The position numbers and the translations under genes are program-made. A stretch of 51,070 nucleotides of DNA, taken from assembly GCA_021781705.1 (NCBI GenBank), contig JAJXWI010000013.1:1-51070 (forward strand). The letters are read 5' to 3'. Positions within the stretch are counted from its first letter, which is position 1, and each line of letters starts with the position of its first letter. Positions 14,238 through 43,784 of the stretch are shown here, piece after piece. Origin of the DNA: a bacterium (lineage in GTDB: Bacteria > Verrucomicrobiota > Lentisphaeria > Victivallales > GWF2-38-69). Under the pieces are notes generated by a model. That model was not told where the DNA came from. It ran no database searches and saw only the letters and a list, made by a program, of their open reading frames with translations.

Positions 14238-15251
14238 ATGAATTCTTTGAGTGACAGGATACAGCTTGCGCATGGGCGGGGGGGCAGGCTTTCTTTATCT
14301 CTTATTAATGATGAAATAGTTCCCAGATTTGGTAAAGGTCCTCTGGATGGGCTTCCTGATGCTGCTACTCTTGGTTCTATATCGGGGGACATAGTTTTTT
14401 CGACGGACAGTTATGTTGTTTCTCCTTATAAATTTAGCGGCGGGAATATCGGTAATCTTGCCGTACATGGCACTGTTAATGATATTTTTGTTTCCGGGGG
14501 AAGCGCAAAATGGCTTTCCATCGGCTTGATCCTGGAAGAAGGTTTTCCCATGTCAGAATTACAACTGATTCTGGACTCAATAAAATCCTCTGCAGATGAG
14601 TGCGAAGTAAAAATAGTTACTGGGGATACTAAGGTCGTAAACAAGGGCCAGTGTGATGGCATCTATATAAATAGTGCCGGAATAGGCGAAAAAATAAAAG
14701 AGTTTAATCTTAGCAAATCCAGGCTGGCTGAAGGTGACGCAATAATCGTGAGCGGTAATGTTGGAGATCACGGCATGGCTATTCTTTCCGCTCGAGAGGG
14801 AGTGAATATGGAAAATGGGCCTGTAAGCGATACGGCATCTGTTCGCAGCCTTGTCTTGTCCATTTGCCAATGTGCTTCGAAAGTAAAATTCATGCGGGAT
14901 CCAACAAGGGGCGGGGTTGCCGCGGTTTTGAATGAAATCGTTTCTGGTACAAAGCTGGGAGCTGCTCTTGACAGTCGTAAAATTCCAGTATCTAATGGGG
15001 CTGGTGCGCTTGCTGAAATTCTCGGGATTGATATTCTTAATGTTGCGTGTGAAGGCAGAATGATTTTAATTTGCGACAGATGCGTTGCTGATAATATTTT
15101 ATCTGTCTGGAAATCTTTTCCGGAAGGAGTGAATGCTTCAATAATGGGTTATATCAACAATGAAGCGCAAAGAGTGATTTTAAAAACTGTAACTGGCGGG
15201 AGTCGGCTTGTGGATCTCCCTGCCGGAGAGCTTCTTCCTAGAATATGTTAA
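14238..15251 (+). CDS. hypE: Hydrogenase maturation protein HypE
   Basis: 337 residues, the normal HypE length. It belongs to the AIR-synthase/PurM-like ATPase family: N-terminal LAHGRGGRLSLSLIND, then the FSTDSYVV and GNIGNLAVHGTVND blocks, a TGDTKVV motif and RDPTRGGVAAVLNE. The C-terminus is PRIC, whose final Cys carries the carbamoyl group from HypF. HypE dehydrates this to the thiocyanate that supplies the CN ligands of the NiFe centre. HypF, HypC and HypD are absent from the window. It lies 3 bases upstream of hypA and should be translated with it. Confidence 0.95.
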   Translation: MNSLSDRIQLAHGRGGRLSLSLINDEIVPRFGKGPLDGLPDAATLGSISGDIVFSTDSYVVSPYKFSGGNIGNLAVHGTVNDIFVSGGSAKWLSIGLILEEGFPMSELQLILDSIKSSADECEVKIVTGDTKVVNKGQCDGIYINSAGIGEKIKEFNLSKSRLAEGDAIIVSGNVGDHGMAILSAREGVNMENGPVSDTASVRSLVLSICQCASKVKFMRDPTRGGVAAVLNEIVSGTKLGAALDSRKIPVSNGAGALAEILGIDILNVACEGRMILICDRCVADNILSVWKSFPEGVNASIMGYINNEAQRVILKTVTGGSRLVDLPAGELLPRIC

Positions 15252-18804: not shown

Positions 18805-18909
18805 AAATCTATTTTAGTCTGAAATGTGTTGCTACACATACATATGTTCGACTTTTGGATGTTTTAGTATTTGCAAGCCTGTAAAAACAGGAGACTATGG
18901 ACCTGGTGT

Positions 18910-20697
18910 ATGAAACATGATATAACATCAATTATAAAAAGATATAATGATGATCCTACGCGGCTTATGGATATTCTTATAGATGTCCAGTCTGCCCTAG
19001 GGTATCTTTCAGATTCTACCATAGAACAAATTGCAAAAATTTTAGATGTTTCCAGAGTAGATGTTGTACAAACTGTTTCATTTTATCATTTTTTTGCCAG
19101 AGCGCCACGAGGCAAATATACTGTTTATCTTAATGACAGTGTTGTTGCTGGCTTCTATGGCAGAGAAAATGTCAAAGAAGCGTTTGATGCGGCGGCTGGA
19201 ATAAAATTTGGAGAAGTCACGGCAGATGGGCTTATTGGTTTATTTAACACTCCATGTATAGGCATGAATGATCAGGAACCTGCAGCCATAATTAACGAGC
19301 GTATTTTTACAAAATTAACGCCTGCTAAGGCCAGGATATTAATATCTGGAATGAAGGCTGGAAAATCTATTGACCAGCTCATGCAAGAAGTTCTTGAAAG
19401 TAATGCCAAGCCTTCTCTGAAAAATTCCATGATAGAAAATAATATAATAAAAAAAGGGGCTGTAATATTTTCAGATTACATCCCAGGCTCAGCGCTCAAA
19501 AAGGTTCTGAATTTAAGTTCTTTGGAAGTTATCAATATTATGAAAAATGCTGCATTGCGGGGCAGAGGGGGCGCTGGATTTCCAACAGGCATGAAGTGGG
19601 ATGTGGCAAGAAAAATACATAGCCGCACAAAATATATATTCTGCAATGCGGATGAAGGCGAACCCGGAACTTTCAAAGATAGAGTAATTTTGACGGCTAT
19701 GCCTAAGCTTGTTTTCGAAGGAATGGCTTTGGCGGCTTATGCCGTTGGTGCTCGTGACGGTATTTTTTATTTGAGAAATGAATATCGCTACATGAGAGAA
19801 TATCTTGAAGGTGTTTTAAAGGAAATGAGAGCGGACAGATTACTTGGAACAGCTATCTGCGGTAAAAAAGGATTTGATTTTGATGTAAGGATACAATTTG
19901 GCGCCGGTGCTTATGTGTGTGGAGAAGAGTCTGCACTTATAGAGTCGGCGGAAGGAAAGCGCGGAGAGCCTCGCGACAGGCCGCCTTTTCCCGTGGAAAA
20001 AGGATATCTGCAGAAGCCCACAGTCGTTAATAACGTAGAAACATTCGGTTCTGTTGTAAGGATAATACAAAATGGAGCGGCTTGGTATAACGGGATGGGG
20101 ACTGAACATTCGAAAGGAACAAAGGTGCTTTCTATTTCTGGAGATTGTGCAAATCCTGGCATTTATGAGGTGGAATGGGGATTTTCTGTAAATGACATAC
20201 TGAAAATGGCTGGGGCCGAAGATGTTCAGGCTGTCCAGATTGGAGGCCCTTCAGGATCTTGTATAGCTCCTAATGAGTTTGGAAGAATATTGGCTTATGA
20301 AGATTTAGCCACTGGCGGATCTCTGATAATCATAGGCAAAAACAGGGATTTGTTAAAAGATGTGGTGCTTAATTTTCAGCGGTTTTTTGCGGATGAATCC
20401 TGCGGTTCATGCGTGCCGTGCAGAGCGCTTACAGTTGTTTGTGTAAAACTAATGGAGAGAGTAATAGAAGGAAAGGCTGCAAAAACAGATTTGGATGATA
20501 TGATTTCGTGGGCTGAGATAATGAAAAAAAATCGCTGCGGGCTTGGACAGACAGCTATGAATCCTGTTATATCTACCATAAAAAAATTTCGTGAGCTTTA
20601 TGATAAAAAAATAACAGCAAAAGATGAGAGGTTTAATCCGGGTTTTGATTTGAAATCGGCAGTGTCCGATTATGATGCCATCGTGGGAGAGAAATAA
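18910..20697 (+). CDS. hoxF: NAD(P)H-oxidising diaphorase subunit of a Hox hydrogenase (HoxE-HoxF fusion type)
   Basis: 595 residues from ATG 18910. An in-frame TTG at 18871 would add 13 residues with no family match. Residues ~1-160 are a NuoE-like domain and the rest is NuoF-like. NuoF motifs are GRGGAGFPTGMKW, the FMN/NAD site GAGAYVCGEESALIES with KPTVVNNVET, and a 4Fe-4S site ESCGSCVPCRA plus a distal CGLGQT. In the NuoE-like part only one of the four [2Fe-2S] cysteines is recognisable (NTPC): the first pair reads VYLNDSVVAGF and the fourth is replaced in IGMNDQEPA. This cluster is probably absent, as in other HoxF-type fusions. The subunit exchanges electrons between NAD(P)(H) and HoxU. 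First gene of hoxFUYHW; stop and next start are adjacent. Confidence 0.92.
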   Translation: MKHDITSIIKRYNDDPTRLMDILIDVQSALGYLSDSTIEQIAKILDVSRVDVVQTVSFYHFFARAPRGKYTVYLNDSVVAGFYGRENVKEAFDAAAGIKFGEVTADGLIGLFNTPCIGMNDQEPAAIINERIFTKLTPAKARILISGMKAGKSIDQLMQEVLESNAKPSLKNSMIENNIIKKGAVIFSDYIPGSALKKVLNLSSLEVINIMKNAALRGRGGAGFPTGMKWDVARKIHSRTKYIFCNADEGEPGTFKDRVILTAMPKLVFEGMALAAYAVGARDGIFYLRNEYRYMREYLEGVLKEMRADRLLGTAICGKKGFDFDVRIQFGAGAYVCGEESALIESAEGKRGEPRDRPPFPVEKGYLQKPTVVNNVETFGSVVRIIQNGAAWYNGMGTEHSKGTKVLSISGDCANPGIYEVEWGFSVNDILKMAGAEDVQAVQIGGPSGSCIAPNEFGRILAYEDLATGGSLIIIGKNRDLLKDVVLNFQRFFADESCGSCVPCRALTVVCVKLMERVIEGKAAKTDLDDMISWAEIMKKNRCGLGQTAMNPVISTIKKFRELYDKKITAKDERFNPGFDLKSAVSDYDAIVGEK

Positions 20698-21387
20698 ATG
20701 GGCACATTTGTTAAATTTTATATCGATGGGAAAGAGTGTATTGCCAGGCATGGAACACAGCTGGTTAAAGCCGCGTGCGAAAATAATATTTATATTCCCA
20801 CGCTATGCAACTATCCGGGAATTCCGCCAAAAGGCGCTTGTAGGATTTGTGCGGTAATAGTTAATGATAAAGCAGTAACAGCATGCACCACAAAAGTGTC
20901 AGAAAGTATCGTGGTTCATAACAATACCCCAGAGCTTGAAAAGTTTCGCAAATCCGTAGTGGAAATGCTGCTTTCCGAAGGCAATCACTTTTGTCCATCA
21001 TGTGAAAAAAGCGGGACATGTGAACTGCAGGCATTAGCGTATAGATACCGTGTTACCGTCTCAGGATTCCCGTATATGTTTCCGTTCCGTGAAATAGAAG
21101 CGTGGCATCCAAAGTTGATGAAAGACCATAACCGGTGCATACAGTGCAAGAGATGTATTCGCGGCATAAAGAATGACCAACGTAAGTCTATATTTGCCTT
21201 TGGAAAACGTGGGACACATGTAGAAATAAATATAGATCATGATGCGTCCGAAGGGATAAGCGATGAATTGGCGCAGAGGTCTATGGATATATGTCCCGTC
21301 GGAGCAATATTGCGCAAAAGAAAAGGATTTGATGTTCCTATAGGGCGCCGAAAATATGATAATAAGCCAATAGGTTCTGACCTGTAG
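20698..21387 (+). CDS. hoxU: Hox hydrogenase electron-transfer subunit HoxU
   Basis: 229 residues, similar to HoxU and the N-terminal part of NuoG. A ferredoxin-like [2Fe-2S] domain comes first (LCNYPGIPPKGACRICAVIV, then a further Cys in TACTTKV). A His-Cys 4Fe-4S segment follows (HFCPSCEKSGTCELQ), then a C-rich HNRCIQCKRCIRG motif with a partner Cys in MDICPVGAI. It relays electrons between the HoxF flavin and the HoxY cluster in the soluble cytosolic complex. ATG follows the hoxF stop directly (TAAATG), indicating translational coupling. Confidence 0.95.
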   Translation: MGTFVKFYIDGKECIARHGTQLVKAACENNIYIPTLCNYPGIPPKGACRICAVIVNDKAVTACTTKVSESIVVHNNTPELEKFRKSVVEMLLSEGNHFCPSCEKSGTCELQALAYRYRVTVSGFPYMFPFREIEAWHPKLMKDHNRCIQCKRCIRGIKNDQRKSIFAFGKRGTHVEINIDHDASEGISDELAQRSMDICPVGAILRKRKGFDVPIGRRKYDNKPIGSDL

Positions 21388-21406
21388 AACTAAATGGAGA
21401 ATATAA

Positions 21407-21961
21407 ATGACCGATAAAAAAATAATAGCTACTATATCTCTCGCCGGATGTTTCGGTTGTCATATGTCATTGCTCGACATAGACGAGCGGCTGCTTGAAT
21501 TTATAGAGCTGGTAGAATTTAACAGGTCGCCTTTAACTGATATTAAGAAAATTACCAGAGAGTGCGACATTGGGTTTATTGAGGGGGGCTGCTGTAATGA
21601 TGAAAACGTGGAAAATCTCATAGAGTTTCGAAAGCACTGCAAGGTATTAATATCTGTCGGAGAATGTGCAATAATGGGAGGAATCCCGGCAATACGCAAT
21701 ACTATTCCTTTAAAAGAATGCCTTGAGGAAGCCTATCTCAATGCTTCTACAACAATCAAATCCAACGATAAAAAAATAATTCCGGGAGATCCGGATATTC
21801 CAAAAATTTTAGACAGGGTTTACCCATGTCATGAAGTTGTAAAAATAGATTATTTCCTTCCTGGCTGCCCTCCCAGAGCTGATTTATTGTGGGAGTTTCT
21901 TTATGCGCTTGTGACAGGAAAACCGTTTGAGTTTAAATATCAAACATTTAAATTCGATTAA
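21407..21961 (+). CDS. hoxY: Hox [NiFe] hydrogenase small subunit HoxY
   Basis: 184 residues, the short small-subunit form with a single proximal 4Fe-4S cluster typical of soluble bidirectional hydrogenases. Cluster ligands visible are C15 and C18 (LAGCFGCHMS), the Cys in SVGECAIMGG and that in PGCPPR. No Tat signal and no distal or medial cluster Cys are present, consistent with a cytosolic enzyme. Start ATG 21407 has a TGGAGA ribosome binding site. It lies 19 bases after hoxU and 44 before hoxH. Confidence 0.95.
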   Translation: MTDKKIIATISLAGCFGCHMSLLDIDERLLEFIELVEFNRSPLTDIKKITRECDIGFIEGGCCNDENVENLIEFRKHCKVLISVGECAIMGGIPAIRNTIPLKECLEEAYLNASTTIKSNDKKIIPGDPDIPKILDRVYPCHEVVKIDYFLPGCPPRADLLWEFLYALVTGKPFEFKYQTFKFD

Positions 21962-22005
21962 TACATTTTTCGGGGAAGACCTGAAAAATGGTGAGAGGAA
22001 ATTAG

Positions 22006-23457
22006 ATGGGAAGGAAAATTACAATTGAACCTGTAACACGTGTTGAGGGACATGGAAAAGTAACAATCCATTTAGACGATAATGGAGAAGTTGCTCAGAG
22101 CAGATTGCATATTGTAGAATTCAGGGGGTTTGAACGGTTTGTGCAGGGACGGCCTTACTGGGAGGTCCCGGTGCTTGTTCAAAGGCTGTGCGGAATCTGT
22201 CCGGTAAGCCATCACATTGCGGCAGCAAAAGCTTTGGATGTAGTTGTTGGTGCCGGCACTGGAGATGGTTTGACACCTGTCGCTGAAAAAATGCGAAGAT
22301 TAATGCATTATGGCCAGATATTTCAGTCTCATACATTGCACTTTTTTTATCTTGCTTCCCCGGATCTTCTTTTTGGCTATGATGCAGCGCCGGAAAAACG
22401 CAATGTTATAAATATAGCTGAGGCAAATAAAGAGTTAGCCGTTCAAGCTATAATGATGAGAAAATACGGACAGGAAGTGATACTTGCCACTGCCGGTAAA
22501 AAAATACACGGAACAGGAGCTATCCCAGGAGGTGTTAATAAGAATTTATCCATACATGAAAGAGATGCCTTGTTGCATGGGGAGCCTCAGTTAAGTGCCG
22601 ATAAAATGGTTGAGCTATCTCAATCAGCCCTCGAATTCTTTAAAGATTATTATAAGAAAAATAAAAGTTTTATTGATAATTTTTCCAGATTTGATTCCAA
22701 CTATTTATCTCTCGTAAGAAAAGATGGAGCATTGGATTTGTATCATGGCGTATTGAGAGCGGTTAACTCTGAAGGTAAAAAAATACTTAATGATGTTGAT
22801 TATCAGGATTATTTGGAATATATAAGAGAAGATGTTCGTTCCTGGACCTACATGAAATTTCCATATCTTACTCATTTGGGCAAAGATCAAGGATGGTACA
22901 GAGTCGGTCCTCTTGCTCGTCTTAATACGGCGGATTTTATACCTACAGCCTTGGCTCAAAAAGAATTTGAGGAATACAAGAAAAACACCTTTGGCAGCCC
23001 AAACAATATGTGTATGCATACACATTGGGCTCGCCTTATAGAGACACTCCATGCCGCAGAAATGATAAGAGATTTGCTTAACGATTCTGACTTGCAAAAA
23101 GAAAATTTAGTAACGACCGGTACGAGGCAGGGAAGGGGAGTCGGAGTAATAGAGGCTCCCAGAGGTACACTTTTTCATGAGTATGAAGTGAATAATGATG
23201 ATCAGATAACTAAATGTAATCTCATAGTATCTACTACAAATAATAATGAACCGATGAATCGTGGAGTGAACCATGTGGCAAAAGCATTCATGTCGGGCAA
23301 AAAAGAAATTACTGAAAGCATGATGAATGCGGTAGAAGTGGTGATTAGGGCGTACGATCCTTGTCTTTCCTGCGCCACACACGCGTACGGAGAAATGCCT
23401 CTGGAAATATCTCTCTATGATTCAAAAGAAAACGTGATTGAACAAAAAAGAAAATGA
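22006..23457 (+). CDS. hoxH: Hox [NiFe] hydrogenase large subunit HoxH
   Basis: 483 residues. The NiFe centre ligands are C62 and C65 in RLCGICPVSHH near the N-terminus and C453 and C456 in DPCLSCATH near the C-terminus. The 24 residues after H459 (beginning AYGEMPLEIS) form the maturation peptide expected to be removed by HoxW. The DPCLSCATH form and the NuoE/F/U-like partners place it with group 3 NAD(P)-linked bidirectional hydrogenases. It reversibly oxidises H2. It overlaps hoxW by 4 bases (ATGA), so the protease is translationally coupled to its substrate. Confidence 0.96.
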   Translation: MGRKITIEPVTRVEGHGKVTIHLDDNGEVAQSRLHIVEFRGFERFVQGRPYWEVPVLVQRLCGICPVSHHIAAAKALDVVVGAGTGDGLTPVAEKMRRLMHYGQIFQSHTLHFFYLASPDLLFGYDAAPEKRNVINIAEANKELAVQAIMMRKYGQEVILATAGKKIHGTGAIPGGVNKNLSIHERDALLHGEPQLSADKMVELSQSALEFFKDYYKKNKSFIDNFSRFDSNYLSLVRKDGALDLYHGVLRAVNSEGKKILNDVDYQDYLEYIREDVRSWTYMKFPYLTHLGKDQGWYRVGPLARLNTADFIPTALAQKEFEEYKKNTFGSPNNMCMHTHWARLIETLHAAEMIRDLLNDSDLQKENLVTTGTRQGRGVGVIEAPRGTLFHEYEVNNDDQITKCNLIVSTTNNNEPMNRGVNHVAKAFMSGKKEITESMMNAVEVVIRAYDPCLSCATHAYGEMPLEISLYDSKENVIEQKRK

Positions 23458-23927
23458 TTGAACAAAAAATACTTATCTATGGCTATGGAAATATAGGAAG
23501 ACAGGATGATGGCCTAGGTGTTTATTTTGCGGAAGCTATGGAGAAATGGGCGTGCGAAAAAGAGATAAAAAATATTTTTTTTGACACTAATTACCAATTG
23601 AACATAGAAGATTCTCTCATTATTGCTGATAAGGATATTGTATTATTTGCTGATGCGTCAACCGTTGGATCTGATTTTAATATAAAAAAACTTGTCGGAA
23701 CAGAAACCGTATCATCATTTTCAACACATAAAATAAATCCAGAATCTCTAGTTTATATATGTGAAAAACTTTATAACAAATCTCCAGCGTCATATCTTAT
23801 TACTATAACAGGATGTGAGTGGGACATAGGCCAGGAAATGTCCGCTGCGGCTAAGACAAATCTTATCTGTGCTCTCTCTTTTTTTCAAAAAAAATACACG
23901 GAAAGACAGCTTGATTTTTATAGATGA
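23454..23927 (+). CDS. hoxW: Hydrogenase maturation endopeptidase HoxW
   Basis: 157 residues, the usual length. The M52 family opening YGYGNIGRQDDGLGVYFAEA contains the nickel-binding acidic residue, and a second acidic ligand region is LFADAST. The FSTHKINPESLVYICEKLY block corresponds to the histidine-containing THxxxP-like region of the family. It would cleave the HoxH precursor after the His of the second CxxC motif once nickel has been inserted. Last gene of the hox operon; an inverted-repeat cluster begins within 16 bases of the stop. Confidence 0.9.
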   Translation: MIEQKILIYGYGNIGRQDDGLGVYFAEAMEKWACEKEIKNIFFDTNYQLNIEDSLIIADKDIVLFADASTVGSDFNIKKLVGTETVSSFSTHKINPESLVYICEKLYNKSPASYLITITGCEWDIGQEMSAAAKTNLICALSFFQKKYTERQLDFYR

Positions 23928-35157: not shown

Positions 35158-35952
35158 TTAGCTAATCATTTTTTTTAGGTAATCGAGCCAGGATTCCATG
35201 CCGTTGCCAGTTTTTGCACTGAGCTCAAAAATGAACATTCCAGGGTTTATCTCTCTGATATGTTTTCTGCATTTCTTTACATCCCAGTCAAGGTATGGAA
35301 CAAGGTCTGTTTTTGTAATGATTGCCACAGGTGCGTCAGAAAATATTACCGGATATTTTACGGGTTTATCTTCACCTTCCGTAGAAGCAAGAAGGACTAC
35401 CTTAAAATCTTCACCAAGTTCAAACGCAGCCGGACAGATAAGGTTGCCTACATTCTCTATAAAAAGGAGCTGCGTATTTTCATTAACTACTTTCGGCAAT
35501 ACTTCTGAAATCTGCTCGGCGTTCAAATGGCAGGACGCATGAGTTTCGATCTGATAAACATAGTCACAACGCCCCCGTAATCTCTTCGCATCATTGTCAG
35601 TGCTCTGGTCCCCTACAATAACGGAGCAATGGATTTTTCCTTTCATGAAATCAAGGGTTTTTTCAAGAAGCGTGGTTTTACCTGAACCAGGAGATGATAT
35701 TATATTTATTGTAACGATTCCCCTGTTTTTAAGCCACGTTCTATTCTTTGCGGCAAATTCTTCATTCTTAGACAGAACGTTTTTTTCAAGAATAACAGTC
35801 CTGGAATGTAAGTGAGAATAGTCTTGGGCATGCGAATGGTCACGGCTATGGTCATGATCATGAGGATGGGCGTGGTCATTGTTATGATGTTCGTGATTAT
35901 GTTTGAAATATTTTTTCTCATTGCCTTCCTGGCATCCGCAGTCTTTACACAT
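35158..35952 (-). CDS. hypB: Hydrogenase nickel incorporation GTPase HypB with His-rich N-terminus
   Basis: 264 residues. The N-terminus MCKDCGCQEG has the high-affinity nickel CxxCGC motif, followed by a His-rich stretch with 13 His in residues 18-49. GTPase motifs are the P-loop SSPGSGKTTLLEKT, the metal-site ASCHLNAEQI, ENVGNLICP and TKTDLVPY. The His stretch can store nickel and the G domain drives nickel delivery with HypA. ATG 35952 has GGAGA about 10 bases upstream. Here hypB is about 20 kb from hypA and hypE and transcribed the other way, so its regulation may be separate. The His-rich form is known from rhizobia and others. Confidence 0.95.
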   Translation of the reverse strand: MCKDCGCQEGNEKKYFKHNHEHHNNDHAHPHDHDHSRDHSHAQDYSHLHSRTVILEKNVLSKNEEFAAKNRTWLKNRGIVTINIISSPGSGKTTLLEKTLDFMKGKIHCSVIVGDQSTDNDAKRLRGRCDYVYQIETHASCHLNAEQISEVLPKVVNENTQLLFIENVGNLICPAAFELGEDFKVVLLASTEGEDKPVKYPVIFSDAPVAIITKTDLVPYLDWDVKKCRKHIREINPGMFIFELSAKTGNGMESWLDYLKKMIS

Positions 35953-40393: not shown

Positions 40394-40939
40394 ATGAAGT
40401 TATTAATTGATTTTTTTCCGATCTTGTTGTTTTTTATAAGCTATAAAATTTTCGGTATTTATATAGCCACCATAGTAACGATGATTGCTTCATTATTACA
40501 GATAGGATTGTTCTGGCTCAAATATCGCAGGATTGAGCTTACTCATATAATTGCTCTGATTTTAATTTCAGTGCTTGGTACTGCAACTTTGTTGTTACAC
40601 AATGCAATTTTCATAAAATGGAAACCTACAGCAATTTATTGGGTTCTAGCGCTATTGTTTTTAGGTTCACAAATAATAGGGTCAAAACCATTTATTCAAC
40701 GCTTAATAGGCAATAAAATTAGTCTGCCTCAAAATATCTGGCATCGACTAAATTTGAGCTGGGCGATATTTTTCGCCTGCATGGGGGGCGTCAATCTTTA
40801 TGTCGCTTATAATTTCAGTACTGATATTTGGGTAAATTTTAAATTGTTTGGATTTTTAGGAAGCACTATTGTATTTGGGGTGCTGCAATCTCTTTACATG
40901 AGAAAGTATTTAAAACAAGAACCAACTGAGTCAGTCTGA
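40394..40939 (+). CDS. yciB: Inner-membrane septation/envelope protein YciB
   Basis: 181 residues, the family size. It has five or six hydrophobic helices, the KWKPTAIYWVLALLFLGSQ signature and the VNLYVAYNFSTDIWVNFKLFG segment typical of YciB/IspZ. In E. coli it contributes to envelope integrity and division. The sequence is very close in style to gammaproteobacterial versions, while surrounding genes are not, so horizontal transfer is possible. ATG 40394 lacks a strong ribosome binding site. It starts 52 bases after tRNA-Pro. Confidence 0.9.
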   Translation: MKLLIDFFPILLFFISYKIFGIYIATIVTMIASLLQIGLFWLKYRRIELTHIIALILISVLGTATLLLHNAIFIKWKPTAIYWVLALLFLGSQIIGSKPFIQRLIGNKISLPQNIWHRLNLSWAIFFACMGGVNLYVAYNFSTDIWVNFKLFGFLGSTIVFGVLQSLYMRKYLKQEPTESV

Positions 40940-41036: not shown

Positions 41037-41627
41037 ATGTCAGGGAAATTGTCAAATATAGAATTGGCGTATGTGGCGACATTTGGAACGCTCTGGGGTG
41101 TTTCTGAAATTACGCTGGGCTTTACTCTTCACAATCTGCATGTGCCATTTACCGGTCTCATTCAGACTTTCATAGGAACCGTTATAGCGTTAATAACTGT
41201 AAAACTCACAAACAAGAAAAGGGCCTTAATTTATACTGCAATGATAGCGGCGGTACAAAAAATGCTCTCGTTCACTACTATTAAAATATTTCCATTCATA
41301 GGCATAATGGTGTCTGCCGCCGTGGGGCAATCCGTTATTTCAGTTCTCGGCATAAATATAATCAGTTTTGTGGTAGCCGGAGCTCTGATGTGTGGATGGC
41401 CGTTTGCGCAGGGCCTTTTATTTTATTTTCTTGCCTATTCTCCGAGATTTCTTGGGATATATCAGGATTTTTTCAACAAAATTCATCTCCAAAATATCAA
41501 CATCTGGACGCTTGTAAAAGTCATATTTATCATACATTTCTTGATAGGAGCGTTTGCCGCCTTATTAGCCTGGAAAATATCGTTATCCATAAAAAAACGA
41601 AAACAAGAAGAACAGCATGCCCAATAA
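41037..41627 (+). CDS. S-component-like integral membrane protein
   Basis: 196 residues with about five to six hydrophobic segments and a short charged C-terminus (ISLSIKKRKQEEQHAQ). The overall layout (N-terminal FGTLWGVSEITLGFTLHNLH, compact helices, about 190 residues) is that of ECF-transporter substrate-binding subunits, but no family-specific motif identifies a ligand. The ATG of the next gene lies 11 bases inside its 3' end, so the two are co-translated. That gene encodes a membrane-anchored NTPase, suggesting a joint transport or signalling function. AAGGAG at 40981 is too far upstream to serve this start; ATG 41037 is chosen because the longer frame is interrupted. Confidence 0.6.
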   Translation: MSGKLSNIELAYVATFGTLWGVSEITLGFTLHNLHVPFTGLIQTFIGTVIALITVKLTNKKRALIYTAMIAAVQKMLSFTTIKIFPFIGIMVSAAVGQSVISVLGINIISFVVAGALMCGWPFAQGLLFYFLAYSPRFLGIYQDFFNKIHLQNINIWTLVKVIFIIHFLIGAFAALLAWKISLSIKKRKQEEQHAQ

Positions 41628-42663
41628 CTACAAAGCACTAATTGTTTTCGTAGTAATAATCCTGCTTTTCGTATTAGACATTAAATCAAGCTTGGTATTA
41701 ACGTTTGCAACACTGTGTTTTCTTCTTTTTTTAGAGCCAAAACTTGTCAGATTTTTCATGAATCCCGGATTCCTTATATTTGCGGTAGTAGCTCTCGGGA
41801 TTCCGATGCTGCTTAGTTTCTCTCTCAAAGATCTGCAAGGAAATCTCCTTGTTTTGTCCAGAGGAATATTGATAACCCTTTTGATATACCTTTACACCAA
41901 AAATTTTACCAGCAGCAGCACGTATAAAAAAATAAAGCGATTTTTGCCGAATGAATTAATCAGTTTAATCAGTGTATCTTCCGGAACGATAACTGTAATA
42001 CAAGAAAAAACGTTTAAAGAATTTAGTAGAATAAAAAGTGAAAAAAGGTCTCCGTTTGGGCACATAGTAAACTTCTTCTACACATTCGCAAAACTCTCAG
42101 AAACTATTTCCATAACCTCTGATAAATTAAACTCACAAAAAATCATTGTACTTACAGGAAAAATTCATGAAGGCAAAACCACATTTGCCGCAAAAATAGC
42201 CAAGGCCGCAAGTGAAGCAGGCATTAAAGTTGGCGGAATTCTCGCAAAAGCTGAAATAAACAATGGAGAAAGAGTCGCATACTACGCGGAAGATATAAAA
42301 ACCAGACAAACTAAAAAGCTAATAACGAAAGAAAATGTCAAGGAATACTACGACCGTTTTCGAGCCTGCTTCTTCCTTAAAGACGGAATGGAATTTGCCC
42401 TGAAATGCTTATCTTCGGAATATTTGCAAGACACAGACGCGATCATTATTGACGAAATCGGCGCCATGGAACTGGAAGATAGAGGATACAGCAAACAATT
42501 ATCAACTTTGCTAAACTCAACCATCCCCATCATAATTTTGGTTATAAGAGAGCAATTCATTGAAGATATCTGTCAGAAATATAATATTACATCAACAGAA
42601 ACTGTAAGAGTCGGAGAAAATCCGGAGACAGTAGTAAAAATAATAAAAAATAATCTAAAATAA
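41617..42663 (+). CDS. Membrane-anchored THEP1-type NTPase
   Basis: 348 residues. About three to four hydrophobic segments occupy residues 5-95, followed by an amphipathic linker. Residues ~174-345 form a P-loop NTPase of the THEP1/NTPase_1 type: Walker A LTGKIHEGKTTFAAKIA (~178), Walker B AIIIDEIGAMELEDRGYSKQ (~282) with the DEIGxMEL sequence diagnostic of the family, and a later IREQF block. Free THEP1 proteins are small cytosolic nucleoside triphosphatases; here the domain is fused to membrane segments. The gene overlaps the S-component-like gene by 11 bases. The N-terminal helices could be a reduced ECF T-subunit-like module, with the NTPase replacing an ABC ATPase, but this is inference. 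Confidence 0.75.
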   Translation: MPNNYKALIVFVVIILLFVLDIKSSLVLTFATLCFLLFLEPKLVRFFMNPGFLIFAVVALGIPMLLSFSLKDLQGNLLVLSRGILITLLIYLYTKNFTSSSTYKKIKRFLPNELISLISVSSGTITVIQEKTFKEFSRIKSEKRSPFGHIVNFFYTFAKLSETISITSDKLNSQKIIVLTGKIHEGKTTFAAKIAKAASEAGIKVGGILAKAEINNGERVAYYAEDIKTRQTKKLITKENVKEYYDRFRACFFLKDGMEFALKCLSSEYLQDTDAIIIDEIGAMELEDRGYSKQLSTLLNSTIPIIILVIREQFIEDICQKYNITSTETVRVGENPETVVKIIKNNLK

Positions 42664-42680
42664 AAATGGAAGGAATCCTT

Positions 42681-43784
42681 ATGATGAAAACGTTAAAAAA
42701 AGGAGCACTGGTTTTTTGTTTGTTAATTTCAATGTTTTTAGTGTCACAAGTTCATGCTGACAAAAAGTATTTTCTTTTATGCACCGACGGCGGGCTTAGC
42801 ATTTATGATGTTCCAAAAGACTGGAACAAGTTGGGTGAACCTGTTAATTTTTTACCATTTGCTCCTGGTGAAATCTGGGGGCGAGTTTTTACAGAAGTAG
42901 GGTTTAATTCAGATAGGTCAATCTTGTACACATCAAGTTATGGTGACAGGATCGTCAATGGATATCATACTATCTACTTTTACAAAGTTCCAAAAAATGG
43001 AGACCTGAGTAAAATTGATAAAAGTCCCTTTTTTAAGATAGAGCAAGATGATCCTTTCACATCGATGGGATTTAATCCCAATGATGGAACTTTTTATACA
43101 ATTGAATATACCCGTGAGTTTATCAATCCCATTATGTTCGATCCTCGTAAGCTGAGCATTTATAATATTGATCCTGACGCAAAATTAGAAAAAGACCGCT
43201 GCAAAAAAAATCGTGATTTTAAAAATTGGCCCAACGACTTCCAAAGAATAATCTTTAAACCTAATGACCCAACCACAGCAGCAGTATTATGGATCGGTAA
43301 AGTTGTCTATTATTCACACAGAGGTGCTATGGATGAATATATTGGTATTGTTGATGGAGTATGGGGTGAGCGTCCAGGCTTAATAACTGGATTTTCCCCA
43401 TCCGGCGACATTGTTATTGTGGAGCATGTTTTTGGGATGCATTTTTATAGAACGCCAAAAAAAGGTGAAAAAATAGATCTTTCTAACAAGTTTGGAAAAT
43501 TTGATAAACGATTTTATCCTTTAACAGGATTTCTGGATAACGAGCATTTTTGTGTGTGTAGTTTAAATAGAGTCGAGATTTATAAAATTCCTCCATGTGA
43601 TAAATGGACGAAAAACAGCATATCAAACGAATCATTTCAGAAAATAGCAAGTTATGAAGCTCGTGGCTGTATGCTTTATAGCACCCCTTCTCTTACAAGA
43701 AATGAAATTGCATTTAAAGACACGCTCGAAAAAGGCAAACCCAGGAAGGCTTATCAGGATGTAAGAATTATTACAGAAGAATGA
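42681..43784 (+). CDS. Secreted beta-propeller-like protein ending at an in-frame TGA
   Basis: 367 residues from ATG 42681 (42684 is equally possible). AAGGA ends 6-9 bases before these, while the earlier ATG 42666 overlaps that ribosome binding site. MMKTLKKGALVFCLLISMFL is a signal peptide ending around SQVHA. The mature part has repeated short strands (YFLLCTDGGLSIYDVP, ILYTSSYGDRI, TFYTIEYTREF, LSIYNIDPD, GFSPSGDIVIVEH) in the style of a propeller with WD-like blades. No catalytic motif. The frame ends at TGA 43784 and continues without another stop to 44213 (see next entry). Confidence 0.7.
   Translation: MMKTLKKGALVFCLLISMFLVSQVHADKKYFLLCTDGGLSIYDVPKDWNKLGEPVNFLPFAPGEIWGRVFTEVGFNSDRSILYTSSYGDRIVNGYHTIYFYKVPKNGDLSKIDKSPFFKIEQDDPFTSMGFNPNDGTFYTIEYTREFINPIMFDPRKLSIYNIDPDAKLEKDRCKKNRDFKNWPNDFQRIIFKPNDPTTAAVLWIGKVVYYSHRGAMDEYIGIVDGVWGERPGLITGFSPSGDIVIVEHVFGMHFYRTPKKGEKIDLSNKFGKFDKRFYPLTGFLDNEHFCVCSLNRVEIYKIPPCDKWTKNSISNESFQKIASYEARGCMLYSTPSLTRNEIAFKDTLEKGKPRKAYQDVRIITEE

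Follow-up and report, generated by a model that had tools for sequence, protein, structure and literature searches.

An overlapping gene pair encoding an S-component-like membrane protein and a membrane-fused THEP1-type NTPase: a putative importer, probably of molybdenum cofactor

The gene pair and its two products

Within the analysed DNA, a stretch of 51 kb which is referred to as the window throughout, two overlapping genes encode a small membrane protein (S) and a larger protein in which a second membrane domain (T) is fused to a nucleoside triphosphatase (T-NTPase). Both open reading frames as well as their overlap, to which the preliminary description had drawn attention, are confirmed, and their coordinates are compiled in Table 1 together with those of all further features. 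An IspA-type septation gene (40394-40939; Pfam/NCBIfam) is located upstream of the pair on the same strand. Two bases past the stop codon of the T-NTPase gene begins a 372-aa open reading frame (42666-43784), the product of which looks exported and which is possibly co-transcribed; Pfam and NCBIfam scans of this frame give zero matches. No ABC ATPase is present among the scanned window neighbours of the pair, no further window gene is hit by the seeds for molybdenum, TonB or regulator genes, and an Rfam scan of the window reveals three tRNAs only, a molybdenum cofactor (Moco) riboswitch being absent. Plasmid searches at the DNA and protein level and viral-contig searches give no match. Elsewhere in the window, genes at 18871-23927, 14238-15251 and 35158-35952 read, judged by their sequence, as an NAD-linked [NiFe] hydrogenase and HypE- and HypB-like proteins, the start of the HypB-like protein being His-rich, while an EamA-type permease (PF00892; 37558-38625) carries a long, His-rich C-terminal tail. 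Nickel or cobalt uptake, an idea prompted by these hydrogenase-like genes and His-rich neighbours, is not backed by the genomic context of any relative.

Table 1. Features of the gene pair (window positions) and of related loci (L numbers)
Feature	Position or locus	Strand	Details
S gene	41037-41627	+	ATG start; 196 aa; fold of a six-helix ECF S-component (AlphaFold model)
S motif E24..G28..H32..P37	41106-41147	+	E24 invariant, others at least 90% in 51 rows (A4)
T-NTPase gene	41617-42663	+	ATG start; 348 aa; overlaps S gene by 11 bases
T, helical membrane domain and cytoplasmic tail, residues 1-170	41617-42126	+	hydropathy; collinear with free T of L097, L100-L103
Arg82 of T	41860-41862	+	invariant in 8 rows of A7
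THEP1-type NTPase domain, residues 173-348	42133-42660	+	PF03266, 6.4e-22; 1ye8/2i3b folds
Walker A GKIHEGKTT, residues 181-189	42157-42183	+	G, G, K invariant in A3
Walker B / THEP1 signature DEIGAMELEDRG, residues 279-290	42451-42486	+	D, E, G, E, G invariant in A3
Arrangement 1: free S and fused T-NTPase	window only
Arrangement 2: S-T-NTPase in one ORF	L113, L119		Bacteroidota; domain order as in the window
Arrangement 3: NTPase-S-T in one ORF	L105-L108		also in Verrucomicrobiota family f25
Arrangement 4: S-T and overlapping soluble NTPase frame	e.g. L111, L115, L116, L132, L133, L135, L136
Arrangement 5: consecutive individual genes for S, T, TonB receptor and NTPase	L101, L102, L103
NapA-type clusters	L097, L099, L101, L102, L104		subtype by sequence reading
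Nar-type cluster	L103		subtype by sequence reading
Psr-type clusters	L110-L113, L120, L133, L136		subtype by sequence reading
Xanthine-dehydrogenase-type genes	L094, L119, L134
MobA-like genes adjoining S-T	L109, L113
NTPase gene overlapping MobA/MocA-like gene	L121, L122
MOSC gene overlapping S-T	L128

The S protein of the window does not match any Pfam or NCBIfam family above cut-off, and the S profile A4 does not retrieve any match among the PDB sequences. Its AlphaFold model, calculated with 50 relatives aligned (A4), consists of six helices (mean pLDDT 93.8, pTM 0.89) and finds its best match among solved structures in 5edl, which we take to be YkoE (Foldseek E 2.2e-3, prob 1.00, TM 0.67; Z 17.4 over 171 residues at 3.5 Å). 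Further S-components matched by the model are RibU (Z 10.5), ThiT (Z 9.4) and FolT (Z 9.4), while the best row which is not an S-component ranks above these three with a Z score of 13.0. We would like to note that, at a Z score of about 13, the model also aligns with subunits of methane/ammonia monooxygenase (PmoA/AmoA), which we take as a common helical arrangement, be it a chance likeness of helix bundles or an old link. Weak matches to PF09819 (2 of 51 S-family rows, best 3.8e-4) and to PF09605 (3 of 51, best 0.0057), both presumably ECF S-component families, are present among the relatives. The six-helix model, the fold matches and these weak family matches support the S-component likeness which had been proposed for the first protein. 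Residues E24, G28, H32, P37, G40 and K75 are invariant or nearly so in alignment A4 and, along with Arg82 of T, are candidate sites for coupling or ligand contact. The window S shares 15-27% identity with its relatives (A4) and in the S tree groups, weakly (82/67) and on long branches, with L113 and L119.

According to hydropathy, the second protein contains about four hydrophobic helices within its first ~95 residues. With 78.6 bits its C-terminal domain exceeds the cut-off of PF03266 (NTPase_1), which is 23.9 bits, and no ABC family appears in the Pfam list of the protein. The fold of this domain corresponds to that of 1ye8 (Z 16.0 over 160 residues at 3.4 Å) and 2i3b (Z 15.3), while the next-best row, an ATP:corrinoid adenosyltransferase, falls to Z 9.5. 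The Pfam match, the Walker motifs and the fold establish the second protein as a set of membrane helices joined to a THEP1-type P-loop NTPase, in agreement with the preliminary description, and the domain is predicted to hydrolyse nucleoside triphosphates. The T part of the model is of low confidence (about 50); alignments A5 and A6, in which T-only rows are misplaced, were both kept out of folding. At the sequence level no Pfam match to CbiQ/EcfT is found, neither for the window protein at E 1 nor for the T and S-T relatives at 1e-3. When compared with T profiles, the window T does not rank above 2000 shuffles in a single-sequence HMM test, while hhalign yields P values of 2.6e-4 and 1.5e-3, each in a single comparison. 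In a pairwise BLASTP comparison, a single alignment with the L119 protein spans residues 8-327 of the second window protein (E 1e-18, the score arising mostly from the NTPase), and the first one is matched by L119 at 34% identity over 122 residues. Since it aligns with both, L119 represents the window pair in the form of a single gene.

Relatives, gene arrangements and genomic neighbourhood

A search with the 196-aa query identifies S at E 0.01 in 19 of 387 sampled Verrucomicrobiota genomes, 17 of which, the window's own included, are credible; of the two dropped matches (G237 and G320) one is situated in a stop-ridden 45-aa frame and the other in an unrelated protein. G041, a weak match in an open frame with a stop, had been dropped before the counts. 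Among Bacteroidota, profile A1 detects S in 31 of 326 genomes. Across both phyla S, T and NTPase occur in five arrangements (Table 1). The exact split into free S and fused T-NTPase is seen in the window only; yet the three domains recur elsewhere, fused in various orders or placed in operons, which supports the conservation of the pair. With S relatives in two phyla travelling with THEP1-type NTPases, the association goes beyond chance.

This association can be put in numbers. At 1e-6 the NTPase profile A3 matches 21 of the 31 Bacteroidota genomes with S compared to 0 of 31 without, and in G489 the NTPase is present as a fusion which is detected by another profile. Of the 387 Verrucomicrobiota genomes, 9 contain a full PF03266 domain (E <1e-10), and S is present in 8 of these 9 (Fisher 5.7e-11, kinship-uncorrected). 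No NTPase is found in 9 of the 31 S-bearing Bacteroidota (G481, G487, G543, G548, G615, G647, G678, G705 and G713), and as some of these assemblies include very large contigs, S-T may work NTPase-free. Three genomes (G462, G535 and G627) harbour two or three S genes each (L097-L100, L104, L111, L131), and in each of them one S lies beside cytochrome/nitrite-reductase-like genes with neither T nor NTPase adjoining, which would be in keeping with an energising unit used jointly by several S proteins. A soluble THEP1 gene adjoins a MurJ-like gene in Kiritimatiellae-type genomes (L043 9952-12155; L050, L060-L062); in G166 a soluble THEP1 gene also adjoins the S-T operon. A gene of the carboxymuconolactone-decarboxylase family (PF02627) is directly beside S-T in the Bacteroidota loci L080, L085, L111, L112, L115, L120, L124, L132, L133 and L135.

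Systems which take up vitamins across two membranes commonly have the gene of a TonB receptor beside that of the inner-membrane transporter. At the 11 Kiritimatiellae-type S-T loci, some of which end at contig ends, an ExbB gene is present in 9, a TonB receptor gene in 8 and a gene for a presumably ModE-like HTH protein (HTH_1 according to Pfam) likewise in 8, while S, T and the TonB receptor are encoded consecutively in L097 and L100-L103. As TonB receptor, ExbB, ExbD and TonB genes stand within the operons of relatives, the transporter-like character which had been suggested for the pair gains support. All 11 of the Kiritimatiellae-type loci (L043, L044, L045, L047-L049, L051, L052, L065, L066 and L068) contain the gene of a SAM-dependent methyltransferase, which either overlaps S-T or lies immediately ahead of it; it falls outside the importer model outlined below, which leaves it unexplained.

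Molybdenum-related genes, a category made up of those for molybdopterin oxidoreductases, enzymes of the xanthine dehydrogenase type, MobA/MocA-like transferases and MOSC proteins, occur in the fetched S or NTPase flanks of 17 of the 31 Bacteroidota genomes, or of 19 if G442 and G493 are added by coordinates, the seeds having been drawn partly from the loci counted. No such gene is present in 40 control stretches of 18 kb, which stem from 9 genomes that are themselves S-bearing (33 of the 40 from five of these), nor at any of the 17 Verrucomicrobiota S loci. The individual types are listed in Table 1; the Psr-type loci may descend from one ancestral layout. At five Bacteroidota loci (L097, L100, L101, L102 and L103) the Moco RNA motif RF01055 is situated directly upstream of S on the same strand (53.1-70.2 bits, gathering score 36), and it is found nowhere else in the 998,831 bases scanned, the window included. 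Its distance to the ATG start of S amounts to 43 bases in L102, 81 in L103 and 140 in L100; it is about 130 bases in L097 (GTG) and 41 in L101 (visible ATG), where the interval reads as a terminator-like hairpin followed by seven T. Four of the five riboswitch genomes (G462, G535, G627 and G635) are devoid of MoaA and MoaC, and it appears that a Moco sensor is retained there by cells which cannot make Moco. The link to the molybdenum cofactor is new here, the preliminary description having named no substrate.

Molybdoenzymes, cofactor biosynthesis and the imported compound

The 48 genomes with S (31 Bacteroidota, 16 Verrucomicrobiota and the window's) were scored for five markers, namely the enzyme families PF00384 and PF02738 and the Moco biosynthesis proteins MoaA, MoaC and MoeA; G409-G411 were left out of cofactor-gene scoring, and G413, G423, G426, G428, G433 and G434 are without a MoeA result. 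An enzyme of either family is encoded in 44 of the 48 genomes. MoaA, MoaC and MoeA are all absent from 26 of these 44, which divide into 14 of the 27 Bacteroidota, all 8 of the Kiritimatiellae-type genomes, 3 of the 8 in family f25 and the genome of the window itself; 18 keep at least one of the three. Partial loss is seen in three more Bacteroidota (G417, G458 and G462), with G417 and G462 lacking MoaA and MoaC and keeping MoeA. In 4 of the 31 S-bearing Bacteroidota no molybdoenzyme is found. Of 16 S-less Bacteroidota, 10 possess an enzyme and 2 of these 10 lack all three biosynthesis proteins (G420 and G418, the latter with a weak PF00384 match). Since the resulting contrast of 26/44 versus 2/10 has a p value of 0.037, which rises to 0.14 for Bacteroidota alone (14/27 versus 2/10), both uncorrected for kinship, we consider it modest and supportive rather than decisive. 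In the Kiritimatiellae-type genomes the counts for MoaC alone (0/8) and PF00384 (0/8) had seemed to speak against molybdenum, an objection overturned by the presence of PF02738 Mo hydroxylases in 8 of 8.

The genome to which the window belongs (G000) contains two complete Mo-hydroxylase loci. At one of them (C49) the genes for a Mo, an Fe-S and a FAD subunit are present; the first of these proteins is closest to 4-hydroxybenzoyl-CoA reductase (1e-106) and, in an alignment with 1rm6, keeps both GGGFGGK and the GAKxxSE end motif. At the other (C40) the gene of the Mo subunit, next to an Fe-S/FAD-like gene, is overlapped by that of a MobA/MocA-like NTP transferase (PF12804, 7e-27). MoaA, MoaC and MoeA are absent from this genome, which is 96.4% complete. 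In view of this completeness, and given a distance of 2 kb between MoaC and MoeA in relatives of the same family, a single missing contig could hide both of them. Two such relatives (G001 and G002) are without S and possess MoaC, MoeA and PF00384. MobA/MocA transferases use Mo-molybdopterin as substrate, and the presence of the MobA-like transferase therefore speaks for the import of Mo-molybdopterin itself or of a form which is converted to it.

We suggest that the pair makes up that part of a primary active importer which resides in the inner membrane. The substrate would enter the periplasm, in relatives via the TonB receptor, and would be bound by S from outside; T would pass the NTPase cycle on to S, which would then deliver the substrate inside. 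The THEP1-type NTPase fused to T would supply the energy, taking the place that the EcfA ATPases hold in ECF transporters, a role with which the present data are consistent. The most probable substrate is Moco (Mo-molybdopterin or a closely related derivative), which a cell unable to make it would obtain from its surroundings, and its clients in the window genome would be the two xanthine-dehydrogenase-type enzymes. We infer the direction of transport, the coupling to the NTPase, the substrate and the sharing of this substrate by the window copy, and we put the probability of an S-T-NTPase importer with Moco as its most likely substrate at roughly 0.55. Counting against Moco import is that free Moco is unstable. 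The further-reaching proposition of a new class of primary transporters, in which an ECF-like S-T unit and a THEP1-type NTPase import intact Moco for bacteria without its biosynthesis, is a tentative one whose chance we rate somewhat below even.

Plain molybdate, our first idea of a substrate, was displaced by the cofactor because many S genomes are without MoaA, MoaC and MoeA. Import of molybdate or tungstate would accord with the ModE-like HTH genes in Kiritimatiellae-type operons and with molybdate transporters also being under Moco riboswitches, as described in PMC2408646; yet 26 of the 44 enzyme-bearing S genomes would, with all three proteins missing, have no known use for molybdate, and the solved S-component folds matched here carry organic vitamins, which makes this reading quite improbable. 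About as little speaks for the import of a precursor, either cyclic pyranopterin monophosphate or metal-free molybdopterin, to which Mo would be added inside: G417 and G462, having kept MoeA in the absence of MoaA and MoaC, fit such a scheme, but MoeA is missing, too, in 26 genomes, and we regard it as decidedly improbable. That the orphan molybdoproteins considered here are Mo-independent, as one option offered in PMC6147048 would have it, would render cofactor import needless. This is very improbable indeed, given that Moco riboswitches are kept in G462, G535, G627 and G635 despite missing MoaA and MoaC and that the enzyme of the window genome has retained its two motifs.

Two further alternatives, which we consider unlikely, concern the NTPase and the window copy itself. 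The NTPase might handle the imported compound, e.g. as a nucleotide- or cofactor-modifying enzyme, with S-T moving the substrate alone. The nine S-bearing Bacteroidota without detectable NTPase, the overlap of NTPase genes with MobA/MocA-like genes in L121 and L122 and the ATP:corrinoid adenosyltransferase as second-best fold all point in this direction, whereas a part in transport is favoured by the NTPase being fused to T or S, both in the window and in L113, L119 and the proteins of NTPase-S-T order. It is likewise doubtful, but conceivable, that the transport module is shared while the S proteins differ in substrate, so that the cargo of the window S may be unrelated to molybdenum. Its low identity to relatives and its long branch, the Verrucomicrobiota loci without a molybdenum neighbour and the genes at 18871-23927 which by sequence reading resemble those of a [NiFe] hydrogenase would agree with such a divergence; the two Mo-hydroxylase loci in a genome without MoaA, MoaC and MoeA, in contrast, speak against an unrelated cargo.

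Comparison with known systems

A 2018 survey describes several hundred prokaryotes which encode molybdoproteins although their Moco pathway is incomplete, and a known Mo transporter is likewise missing in most of them; for these orphan molybdoproteins new biosynthesis or Mo-independent forms are offered there as reasons, and the question is left open (PMC6147048). A Moco uptake system, if it indeed exists, would explain these orphans, and the uptake reading makes the question directly testable. Two papers report that Moco passes from bacteria into C. elegans, crossing membranes by unknown means (PMC9793310, PMC12479013), and the uptake of molybdopterin by type 11 secretion proteins figures as speculation in another (PMC12282271). 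In the open-licence literature we found no bacterial Moco importer, no THEP1-energised transporter and no ECF S component associated with TonB in Bacteroidetes.

The window S resembles in fold the S-components of ECF transporters (5edl, RibU, ThiT, FolT), and both systems consist of S for substrate binding, T in the membrane and an NTPase. The window NTPase, however, is of the THEP1 type rather than an ABC ATPase; for T there is no match to the EcfT family, and for S none to an S family above cut-off. With THEP1/NTPase_1 (PF03266; 1ye8, 2i3b) and DUF2478 (PF10649) the NTPase shares sequence family, Walker motifs and fold; unlike the two THEP1 chains compared, which are short and single-domain, it is membrane-fused or encoded along with S-T. 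To our knowledge, the function of the THEP1 family in bacteria is obscure. If its members energise S-T, this would provide a role for the family and a non-ABC energy source for S-component transporters.

Genes of the molybdate transporters ModABC and MFS_MOT1 are preceded by Moco riboswitches, as stated in PMC2408646 and PMC5317091 and as is the case in five of the relatives. In contrast to these systems, no ABC or MFS protein is involved here, neither window protein matches ModA, ModB or ModC (Pfam/NCBIfam), and many of the genomes are without the biosynthesis required to use molybdate. Closer in layout is TonB-dependent vitamin uptake, where, as in the relatives, TonB receptor, ExbB, ExbD and TonB genes stand beside the inner-membrane part. 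In BtuB-BtuCDF, which takes up a vitamin in a TonB-dependent manner, an ABC transporter operates at the inner membrane; it is this usual place of the ABC transporter which S-T-NTPase would occupy.
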